From a bacterium A37T11 (lineage in GTDB: Bacteria > Bacteroidota > Bacteroidia > Sphingobacteriales > Sphingobacteriaceae), in the NCBI GenBank assembly GCA_900109895.1, contig FOBR01000001.1:1-64000 (forward strand): a stretch of DNA of 64,000 nt, written 5' to 3'. The position numbers were made by a program, and so were the translations under genes. The notes beneath the pieces were generated by a model. The model saw nothing but the letters and a program-made list of their open reading frames with translations. It ran no database searches and was not told the origin of the DNA. Below, one piece after another: positions 1,831-4,140 of the stretch; within the stretch, counting starts at the first letter, position 1, and every line of letters starts with the position of its first letter.

Positions 1831-1933
1831 TGATATCCATTCCATAACAACCCTTACGGCTGAACAAGCAGTCTCTGAATTGGGTTTTGGCTATAAGCAA
1901 TAGGCTTTTGGCATGTGCAAAGCCAGCTTTTCG

Positions 1934-1958: not shown

Positions 1959-2116
1959 CCTTTCAAACTGTGGTCATCAATAACCCAATATTCTTTCTTG
2001 ACGTTAATAGGATTGTTGTATATACCTTTCAACATGTGATCACCAATACAATGAAGGTTCGCACTCCGGTGCGCTGATTATTTATATATATCCTCTAAAT
2101 TATGTTCATCAACAAC
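1959..2116 (-). CRISPR. degenerate CRISPR-like array, three repeats
   Basis: Three related units of 25-26 bases read on the minus strand. C (2092-2116) begins GTTGTTGATGAAC and ends AATTTAGAGG. B (2025-2049) begins GTATTGGTGATC and ends TGTTGAAAGG. A (1959-1984) begins GTTATTGATGACC and ends GTTTGAAAGG. Their low ends are 66 and 67 bases apart, leaving intervals of 42 and 40 bases. The first scaffold copy ends in the same 67-base phase (2159). The repeats are diverged and few, and no cas1 or cas2 is present, so this is at most a fixed, guide-encoding array rather than an adaptive one. One interval contains a small hairpin, CGCAC/GTGCG (2060-2073). Confidence 0.5.
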
Positions 2117-2209
2117 CTAAAATAAATAGATATTCAGCGAGTATCCACACGATCTCACCCTACGGCTGAACAAGCAGCCTCCTATATTTTCAAAGACCAA
2201 AACCAGGGA

Positions 2210-3322
2210 TCATTCCTCAATTACATGAATCCCGGCCTTTTTAGCCTTATAAGCTATTTTTTCTTTCAGTCCATAATAACTCCAATTACGTAACAGGAAT
2301 TCCTCCTCCTTCGCCACTTCTTCCTTTTTAGCTTGATTAACCAGCAATAATGTGCCTGCCTGCGTTTTAATACACGTATCTATTAGGCGCCGGCTGTACA
2401 AATGAAGACGGCTATTTACATAGCTGATCTCCTTAGCCGTATAGTCGTCCAGGCTTTTCAACTTCCTTTTGCGGCCCTTACCTCCTTTATTAAAAGTAGA
2501 CCCGCGTTGCAAGCGGTGCCTGGCGGCCTGAATAGCCAGCCTGCGGTGCAAAAACTCCTCCTTATTACCGATCTGAAAATGCTCTTTCCCCACTTTTACG
2601 ACAATCGGATGTTCCAGTGATAAAGAAGCCTCCGCAATAATCGCATCATTTAAGTGGTGCTCTTCCTGCTCCATCTCAAAGGTGGCCAGCAGGTATAACT
2701 TCCCTTGATCAATTTTTAATGAACTGGTACGTAATTTCAATGTTCCGGCCAATGTACGCTGCAACAAAACCTTTTTGTCCGACCTGTCTTTGCCCAAATA
2801 GGTTTTAAACGGGATATTGAATAAGCTGAACATATAATCATGCCCTTTATCCCCATTGGCCAGTTTCAATTTATCGGCACCAAAAGGCAGCGGAATATTC
2901 CGCTTATAATTACGTAGCGATTTCTCACCCTTCCAATAAGCCTCCCTTTCGGAATTGTAAAGGCTGTTTAGCGTATTATTCAAGTTAGAAAAAATATTGG
3001 AGGGCATCTTGCCCAAAAAGTTACTGGAAAGGATTCGGTAGGTTGTATTCATCCGGGACGAGTTGAGAATACCTTCTTCATCTTTTTTCTTATCGGCAAT
3101 TTTTACTTTCACATCGTCCGTAAAATAAATTAGGTCTTTAACCCGATCTTGCACATACAGGTTAGTGAAGATCAAGTTGGCGGCCTTGGCAGCCATCCAT
3201 TGCCAGTCCCACAACTGTTGGTAATAAGCTTTGCGCTTTTCGGCATCATCGCAATCAATGTGTACCTGGATTTTCCGGGTCAGGATGATCTTTTTGGGCG
3301 CTTTTAGTGTCTCTTGTTCCAT
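2210..3322 (-). CDS. nuclease-dead Cas12f/TnpB-like RNA-guided DNA-binding protein
   Basis: The 370-residue protein has the architecture of compact Cas12f/TnpB proteins but cannot cut. Residues 250-315 carry the Lys/Arg-rich bridge-type segment (IGNKEEFL, RLQRGSTFNKGGKGRKRKLK). Residues 346-365 carry the late family motif NWSYYGLKEKIAYKAKKAGI. The RuvC-I aspartate is replaced by Lys243 in PIVVKVGKE. The RuvC-II glutamate position (about 328-329, LLLVNQ) is Val/Asn. The chain stops at residue 370, before the zinc ribbon and RuvC-III aspartate. Its start overlaps the sigma gene's stop by one base (TAATG), so the two are probably made together. Role by inference: binding of guide RNA and DNA to place the partner sigma factor. 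It resembles the dCas12f-sigmaE systems reported for Bacteroidota, as I recall them. Confidence 0.82.
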   Translation of the reverse strand: MEQETLKAPKKIILTRKIQVHIDCDDAEKRKAYYQQLWDWQWMAAKAANLIFTNLYVQDRVKDLIYFTDDVKVKIADKKKDEEGILNSSRMNTTYRILSSNFLGKMPSNIFSNLNNTLNSLYNSEREAYWKGEKSLRNYKRNIPLPFGADKLKLANGDKGHDYMFSLFNIPFKTYLGKDRSDKKVLLQRTLAGTLKLRTSSLKIDQGKLYLLATFEMEQEEHHLNDAIIAEASLSLEHPIVVKVGKEHFQIGNKEEFLHRRLAIQAARHRLQRGSTFNKGGKGRKRKLKSLDDYTAKEISYVNSRLHLYSRRLIDTCIKTQAGTLLLVNQAKKEEVAKEEEFLLRNWSYYGLKEKIAYKAKKAGIHVIEE

Positions 3323-4140
3323 TACGCAGATTTTTTATTTTTCTTAATCACCGCATGGGCTTGGATGAACAGTTGCTTCACCAACCCATCGTCCAGGTGC
3401 AGGGCTGCCGCTATTTCTTCAAAGCTGTACTGCATTTCATAACGCAGGGTGAATACCTGCGCCTGCTCTTCGCTCAGCATCCCTTCGGTCACCAAGGGTT
3501 TGCTGCGGGTGGCATTGTCCAGCCGGGCGGTATCGGCCAAGGCCGCTTTCAGGTTGGCAATGCATTGCTCCACGCGCATCCCGACCTCATAATCGGAGAT
3601 GCCGCCCAAGTGATGGGCTATGCGTTCGTAATTGAAACTGTATTTGAGGCAGAGCCGGATGAATAACTGCTGCTGTTCATTGACATGTGGAAAAAGTTGG
3701 TTGATCTTTTCCAGTTGTTGCTGTTTTTCCTGTTCCAATTGCTCCAAATAGACCAAATCCTCTTCATCGGCCTCCTCCAGTTCATAGCCCAGCATAAATT
3801 CCTGGTAGTCTTCTATGCCGTCCAGTTGCAGCATGCTCCTGTAAAAGCGGTTTATGGTCTTACCATAGTAGGCTTTACCGGCTTCCCTAATCTGCATGCC
3901 TAGGAATTCATGCAGGTGAGCCACATCCCGGATGTTCACCCGCATGAGCCAAAGCCGCAAAAAGGCTTCCTGTGCCATGCTGCTGGCCACCACTTCTTCT
4001 TTTACAAAACGGATAGCCCGGTAAGCATAGTGCTTATAATAGGCATTGTAAAAATAGTTCAACCCTGTTTCTTCACCGGCCTTTAGTCTTAGCAAGTTCT
4101 TTTCTGCCTGCTGTTTTGATTTGAGTAACGTTCCAGTCAT
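3322..4140 (-). CDS. ECF-like sigma factor, partner of the dead Cas12f-like protein
   Basis: Starting at the ATG at 4140, the protein has 272 residues, well above the usual 170-200 for ECF sigmas. Residues about 14-84 match the sigma-2 region that binds core RNA polymerase and the -10 element (AGEETGLNYFYNAYYKHYAY, then AQEAFLRLWLMR). Two regions resemble sigma-4: about 147-199 (FNYERIAHHLGG) and 218-267 (LSEEQAQVFTLRYEMQYSFE and EIAAALHLDDGLVKQLF). A linker rich in Glu and Gln (about 119-146) lies between. The extra sigma-4-like module may be the docking site for the Cas12f-like partner; that is inference. An upstream in-frame ATG at 4188 lies within the operator block and was not chosen. 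No anti-sigma gene is adjacent. Confidence 0.82.
   Translation of the reverse strand: MTGTLLKSKQQAEKNLLRLKAGEETGLNYFYNAYYKHYAYRAIRFVKEEVVASSMAQEAFLRLWLMRVNIRDVAHLHEFLGMQIREAGKAYYGKTINRFYRSMLQLDGIEDYQEFMLGYELEEADEEDLVYLEQLEQEKQQQLEKINQLFPHVNEQQQLFIRLCLKYSFNYERIAHHLGGISDYEVGMRVEQCIANLKAALADTARLDNATRSKPLVTEGMLSEEQAQVFTLRYEMQYSFEEIAAALHLDDGLVKQLFIQAHAVIKKNKKSA

Follow-up and report, generated by a model that had tools for sequence, protein, structure and literature searches.

The closest described relatives of the locus treated here form the dCas12f-sigma-E system for RNA-guided transcription, in which a nuclease-dead Cas12f (dCas12f) is paired with a sigma factor, and which was reportedly presented in 2025 preprints by the Sternberg and Chang groups. 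We describe a locus that resembles it in the bacterium A37T11 (Sphingobacteriaceae; assembly GCA_900109895.1), in positions 1 to 64,000 of contig FOBR01000001.1, and we call this whole stretch of 64,000 nucleotides the window. Beside a gene for dCas12f lies a short array of the kind known from clustered regularly interspaced short palindromic repeats (CRISPR), and RNA-guided transcription activation of the known kind, here with array-encoded guides, is its most likely function. We think it quite probable that the locus as a whole is a dCas12f-sigma factor RNA-guided transcription system with its guides stored in this array.

The two genes of the operon are both intact and lie upstream of the array on the same (minus) strand. 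The first (3325-4140) encodes a sigma-70 family protein of about 272 amino acids, similar to extracytoplasmic function (ECF) sigma factors (Sigma70_r4 of Pfam, 1.3e-8; TIGR02937, 6.1e-14), and its stop codon overlaps the start of the second (TAATG), which encodes a Cas12f protein of 370 amino acids (2210-3322). The former matches chain C, 'RpoE', of PDB entry 9n9q (E 2e-32) and the latter the 'Nuclease-deactivated Cas12f' of 9n9c, 9n9m, 9n9o and 9n9q (E 1e-122), so that each has its homologue in the same deposited complex; the titles of the matched entries speak of a 'dCas12f-gRNA complex' and a 'dCas12f-gRNA-DNA complex (partial R-Loop)'. A predicted model of dCas12f also finds these entries as its best structure matches (Z 27), but since the whole-chain root-mean-square deviation is large, this only supports the sequence match and adds nothing to it. 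Compared with active Cas12f, the RuvC-I aspartate is replaced by Ser233, within an AE.SLS motif, and the RuvC-II glutamate by Asn329, and the protein ends at residue 370, before the third catalytic part of RuvC. The motif is invariant or nearly so among the relatives in alignments of 18 and 23 sequences, and the dead motif is the same in the dCas12f-sigma-E system (9n9c, 9n9m, 9n9q), where the two proteins are likewise encoded in one operon. The earlier annotation of the window, made from its letters alone (the sequence-only reading), had called the Cas12f dead, and judged by the lost catalytic residues it should indeed be so. A single-protein query gave no relatives, and an alignment-based search of genome contigs gave 212; the sigma gene lies upstream of dCas12f in 77 of the 80 named ones.

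Some of these relatives deviate. A frameshift splits dCas12f into two overlapping frames in Parapedobacter indicus (L015, L021, L241) despite its long arrays, and this is either a pseudogene or a sequencing error. Two divergent copies of dCas12f are found per genome in G110 (L013, L020) and in Sphingobacterium alkalisoli (L181, L184), and a contig labelled as a metagenome-assembled genome of Neobacillus (L185) carries a locus of the Sphingobacteriaceae type and is probably mis-binned.

The array on the minus strand has three repeats with an exact period of 66 bases, and its unit is a repeat of 36 bases followed by a guide of 30. An unbiased repeat search found three copies of 27 bases (1956-1982, 2022-2048 and 2088-2114), spaced 66 and 66 from start to start. 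When the 36-base repeat of Parapedobacter composti was compared with both strands of the window, the best matches were all on the minus strand and were the three repeats themselves: repeat 1 at 2081-2116 (GTTGTTGATGAACATAATTTAGAGGATATATATAAA, 27 of 36 bases identical), repeat 2, the best preserved, at 2015-2050 (TGTATTGGTGATCACATGTTGAAAGGTATATACAAC, 31 of 36), and repeat 3, with a degenerate 3' end, at 1949-1984 (GGAATTCTTTAA, 25 of 36). The next-best match anywhere in the 64 kb reached 21 of 36. It is because these matches fall exactly here, and in register, that we place the 36+30 unit on the minus strand. The repeats are followed by guide 1 (2051-2080, TAATCAGCGCACCGGAGTGCGAACCTTCAT), guide 2 (1985-2014, AATCCTATTAACGTCAAGAAAGAATATTGG) and the position of a third guide (1919-1948), all read on the minus strand.

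The array itself had been recognised in the sequence-only reading, with a period of 66 to 67 bases; the period is constant as it said, and the value is 66 throughout. Its division into repeats of 25 or 26 and intervals of 40 to 42 bases has to be given up, as those repeats were the 5' 25-26 bases of the full ones. From the 36+30 unit it also follows that the shared A/T-rich bases, taken to begin the intervals, are the conserved 3' end of the repeat, TATATACAAC, which relatives have too. One could argue that the divergence of the three copies, which are only about 22-23 of 36 bases identical to each other, speaks for a chance tandem similarity and no array at all. We give this next to no credence and reject it: besides the in-register matches to the P. 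composti repeat, the pairwise identity summed over the three copies is 57 (the maximum among 500 shuffles of the region was 41), and relatives share the repeat and the period at the same place. Regular direct repeats, unique spacers and homology to the longer arrays of relatives give it the architecture of a CRISPR array.

Between the stop codon of dCas12f and repeat 1 sits a scaffold resembling a tracrRNA (2127-2179, minus strand; GGCTGCTTGTTCAGCCGTAGGGTGAGATCGTGTGGATACTCGCTGAATATC from 2179 down), with a hairpin GGCTG/CAGCC, a hairpin GTGAG/CTCGC and then an anti-repeat, AATATC. Its partner is the part of the repeat that directly precedes the handle: in relatives AATGC pairs with GCAT or AATACC with GGTAT, and in the window AATATC pairs with GATAT, where the GATAT arm of repeat 1 meets ATATC of the scaffold. 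Repeat 1 and the scaffold have changed together with the pairing kept. Over 24 sequences, 94% of the cells of the stem and the scaffold-repeat helix are paired, and 38 double changes were counted. The covariation score is 0.456; shuffles gave 0.177, and sliding the segments gave no more than 0.165. Of these two controls the sliding one says more, since the segments were picked from the motif by the analyst and then joined. The predicted fold of the window RNA pairs the scaffold with repeat 1, with a total energy that is not exceptional, and an Rfam search gave no match. The same scaffold design was found downstream of dCas12f in 37 of 81 regions (the 80 named relatives and the window); there were 77 raw pattern matches, two of which were set aside as spurious, leaving about 75 genuine ones.

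In Flavobacteriaceae the scaffold runs straight into the handle (...AATGC...GCATATACAAC) and then into the guide, which makes a natural single guide RNA. The scaffold and ATACAAC handle of the window are designed as in these relatives; the difference is that one scaffold is there fused to one guide, whereas the window and Parapedobacter have one scaffold and then a 36+30 repeat-guide array. Several Pedobacter species have many complete scaffold-guide units one after another; in two Pedobacter loci (L212, L217) about 8-10 of them stand in tandem downstream of dCas12f, and many of their guides have GGGCT or GGGTCT cores. Most Sphingobacterium loci (L180-L206) have the sigma-dCas12f pair and no recognisable scaffold downstream of it, and their guide RNA must for that reason be encoded elsewhere or be different.

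Guides 1 and 2 were searched for in their own genome as anchored patterns with up to three mismatches in 16 bases. Guide 1 has one site with a single mismatch in 16, and when the match is extended 26 of its first 29 bases are identical at the target (G000:C52, 112842 down to 112814, minus strand). The complementarity sets in precisely where the guide is predicted to begin, behind a 5' G, and in a genome of 5.09 Mb the chance expectation for such a match is about 1e-5. From the first base of the target it is 118 bases to the start codon of a SusC/RagA gene (TIGR04056, 395.5 bits, cut-off 368.25) in the same orientation, and this gene is followed by SusD (PF14322, 1e-32) and by one for a thioredoxin-like protein. 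At least 53 SusC genes were counted in this genome, and no upstream region among those 53 was matched comparably. The earlier proposal that the array is a set of guides is supported, and a guide directed at the upstream region of a gene is another likeness to the dCas12f-sigma-E system. An inactivated RuvC, an adjacent RpoE-like sigma factor, a scaffold beside dCas12f and a guide that matches a chromosomal upstream region are found together in the window, and by those criteria that a sequence can test the locus would work like, and belong to, the dCas12f-sigma RNA-guided transcription family. What appears to set it apart within this family is the encoding of guides by a CRISPR-like array.

A strong hairpin of 11 pairs followed by T6, resembling a terminator, separates the target of guide 1 from the start codon of SusC (L402:755-843, G000:C52), at about +35 to +73 counted from the first target base; it was absent from the results of a simple terminator scan, in which loops were restricted to 3-8. 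In the published dCas12f-sigma system transcription is said to start about 46 bases from the target. We infer that this distance would predict a start within the hairpin, and that the hairpin could not form if transcription starts inside it; it would therefore stop upstream transcripts and not guided ones.

A dead nuclease bound near the start of a gene could also block the polymerase, and the guide 1 complex would then be a repressor of the SusC operon, in the manner of CRISPR interference or of TldR, the TnpB-derived RNA-guided repressors. A nuclease-dead TnpB relative of this type blocks transcription in flagellin control (PMC13418256). TldR proteins resemble the protein in the window in being nuclease-dead and in the RNA-guided control of host genes, but they belong to the TnpB lineage, repress, and have neither a sigma factor nor an array. 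Repression is very unlikely here, given that the sigma gene is so regularly adjacent to dCas12f and that a sigma factor has been solved together with dCas12f (9n9q). Moreover, the target is upstream of the gene and not inside it, and a scan for sigma-70-type promoters, which does not cover those of Bacteroidota, found none at the target. The sigma partner would thus argue for activation as opposed to a repression like that of TldR.

The repeat, the scaffold and the protein descend from Cas12f, and it has to be considered whether the array might be an immune one of type V-F directed against phages or plasmids. The long arrays of relatives with their unrelated spacers, and Cas1 encoded elsewhere in five of eight genomes, would fit such a role. 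With the type V-F systems (Un1Cas12f1, AsCas12f, CnCas12f1) the locus shares the fold, a tracr-like scaffold and a repeat-spacer array, but the protein is shortened and its catalytic RuvC residues are replaced, and no Cas1 (PF01867) was found in the assembly, which is 97.5% complete. The array had no match in plasmids. The sole convincing match of a guide (guides were not compared one by one with viral collections) is to a chromosomal upstream region. We regard immunity as extremely improbable; since guide 1 matches just upstream of a nutrient-uptake operon, the locus appears to be a natural gene switch addressed by RNA, and not a means of immunity. The lack of Cas1 is also consistent with the earlier suggestion that the array no longer gains spacers.

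Several observations weigh against a guided activator. Of the three guides, guide 1 alone has a target. With the same pattern search guide 2 gave 44 sites, 43 of them outside the array itself, compared with 60 for its reversed control, none of them convincing, and its best genomic matches are at chance level. The stretch after repeat 3 enters a dispersed, low-complexity sequence of the AAAGCTTAAAGC type with many near-identical copies in the genome, and is probably not a working guide; both repeat 3 and guide 3 look degenerate. Against the upstream regions of the 53 SusC genes guides 2 and 3 gave nothing above shuffles, and exact matches of the guides within the window were chance matches of 10-12 bases only. 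A BLAST search of the array against its own genome (E up to 10) returned mostly the dispersed sequence after repeat 3, AAGCGGAAAGCTTAAAGC, and missed the guide 1 target. The flanking base is a further difficulty: the dCas12f-sigma preprint reportedly gives a 5'-G flanking motif, and the base before the target is G in the window and C and T at two targets in Parapedobacter luteus, so that no common flanking base is shown. The distances to the genes also vary in P. luteus (about 70 and 336 bases), and most of its 29 distinct guides have no target, either by BLAST of the P. luteus genome or in the 1.7 Mb scanned. In the latter, a start-anchored scan left only three guides, at two sites, above reversed controls. 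That most are unmatched would mean that the seed is short, that targets have drifted, or that many guides are idle.

The diverged repeats, the degenerate repeat 3 and the two guides without targets could also mean that the array is a decaying remnant, once functional and now unused, with the guide 1 match as a relic. We find this unlikely, since both genes are intact, repeat 1 and the scaffold have co-changed with their pairing kept, and guide 1 keeps its 26 of 29 bases. The sequence-only reading had named two outcomes that would tell against it, a period not conserved in relatives and intervals without any genomic match. Neither was obtained, because the period of 66 bases is kept in relatives and guide 1 matches an upstream region of its own genome, with no convincing match for guides 2 and 3; as a whole that interpretation is partly supported.

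The arrays of relatives range from 1 to 31 repeats. In Parapedobacter an array comes after one scaffold; P. luteus carries three blocks of this form, which contain 31 repeats in all. One of its guides, TTCAATCCAACATAAAGAACG..., which is present in two array blocks, matches at 22 of 23 bases a site 336 bases upstream of a SusC-type open reading frame (ORF) with SusD after it. Two related guides share a single site, located about 70 bases ahead of an ORF behind which another SusC lies. The upstream region matched by the former guide and the one that holds the target of the window's guide 1 have in common a divergent helix-turn-helix gene (65% identical) and the string TATAAAGAACGT, and the guides of the two species fall on neighbouring stretches of this shared region. 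For P. tibetensis and Olivibacter, BLAST searches with the guide regions found no upstream target with an anchored match. No two species have a complete guide in common among the 87 collected from eight loci, and what recurs is limited to two partial cores of 15-18 bases (GGGTCGGTTTTTGAAAAA and GCCTTGCTGTGAAAC). The guides, as far as such comparisons can tell, are fast evolving and nearly all species-specific, and with the differing repeat numbers this goes against the claim that the set evolves slowly.

A conserved stretch lies between the array blocks of P. luteus, P. koreensis and P. indicus (L028, L025, L035) and is possibly a small gene. In Flavobacteriaceae a guide core, GCGTGGGCTCTCTTATT, is conserved in Allomuricauda, Maribacter, Flagellimonas and Muricauda, and partly in Mesonia (L238, L239, L243, L245-L249), which suggests that it may have one conserved target there. 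In the window a partial second copy of the scaffold (1845-1876, minus strand; ACTGCTTGTTCAGCCGTAAGGG), which forms a 24-base direct repeat with it (92%), is probably a remnant. A pair of genes for a HigB-like toxin (PF05015) and a HigA antitoxin (TIGR02607) adjoins the array at 1190-1830 on the plus strand and is convergent to it.

The activation that we favour would proceed as follows. The scaffold (2179-2127) and the array, which lie downstream of the sigma-dCas12f operon, would be read on the minus strand, and the anti-repeat would pair with the 3' part of the repeat, so that an RNA of scaffold, repeat and guide forms. dCas12f would carry this RNA to the matching DNA site without cutting it, and the partner sigma factor would bring RNA polymerase there, with transcription starting downstream. 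Guide 1 would address the region 118 bases upstream of the SusC start codon, and the operon of SusC, SusD and the thioredoxin-like gene should therefore be switched on. This scheme is based on the protein homology, the dead active site, the conservation of the operon, the covariation of the scaffold, the arrays of relatives and the match of guide and target; the recruitment of sigma factor and polymerase, activation and not repression, and the start of the transcript are presumed from the solved relative and from published work.

In P. luteus some guides are duplicated between array blocks, and several would be aimed at the same upstream regions. More tentatively, and with somewhat less than even confidence, we suggest that a lineage of Sphingobacteriaceae may use whole arrays as an address book open to editing, by which one sigma factor is directed to nutrient-uptake operons, with guide sets being rewired between species faster than the proteins change. 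Bacteroidota have many ECF sigma factors and SusC-SusD operons, the regulation of which is often unclear, and an RNA-addressed sigma factor would be readable directly from sequence, as it is here, where the guide points to its operon. Systems with an array would be an intermediate between CRISPR-Cas12f immunity, which combines an array with an active nuclease, and the regulator of Flavobacteriaceae with its single guide, and the path from defence to gene control could therefore be tested by comparing species.
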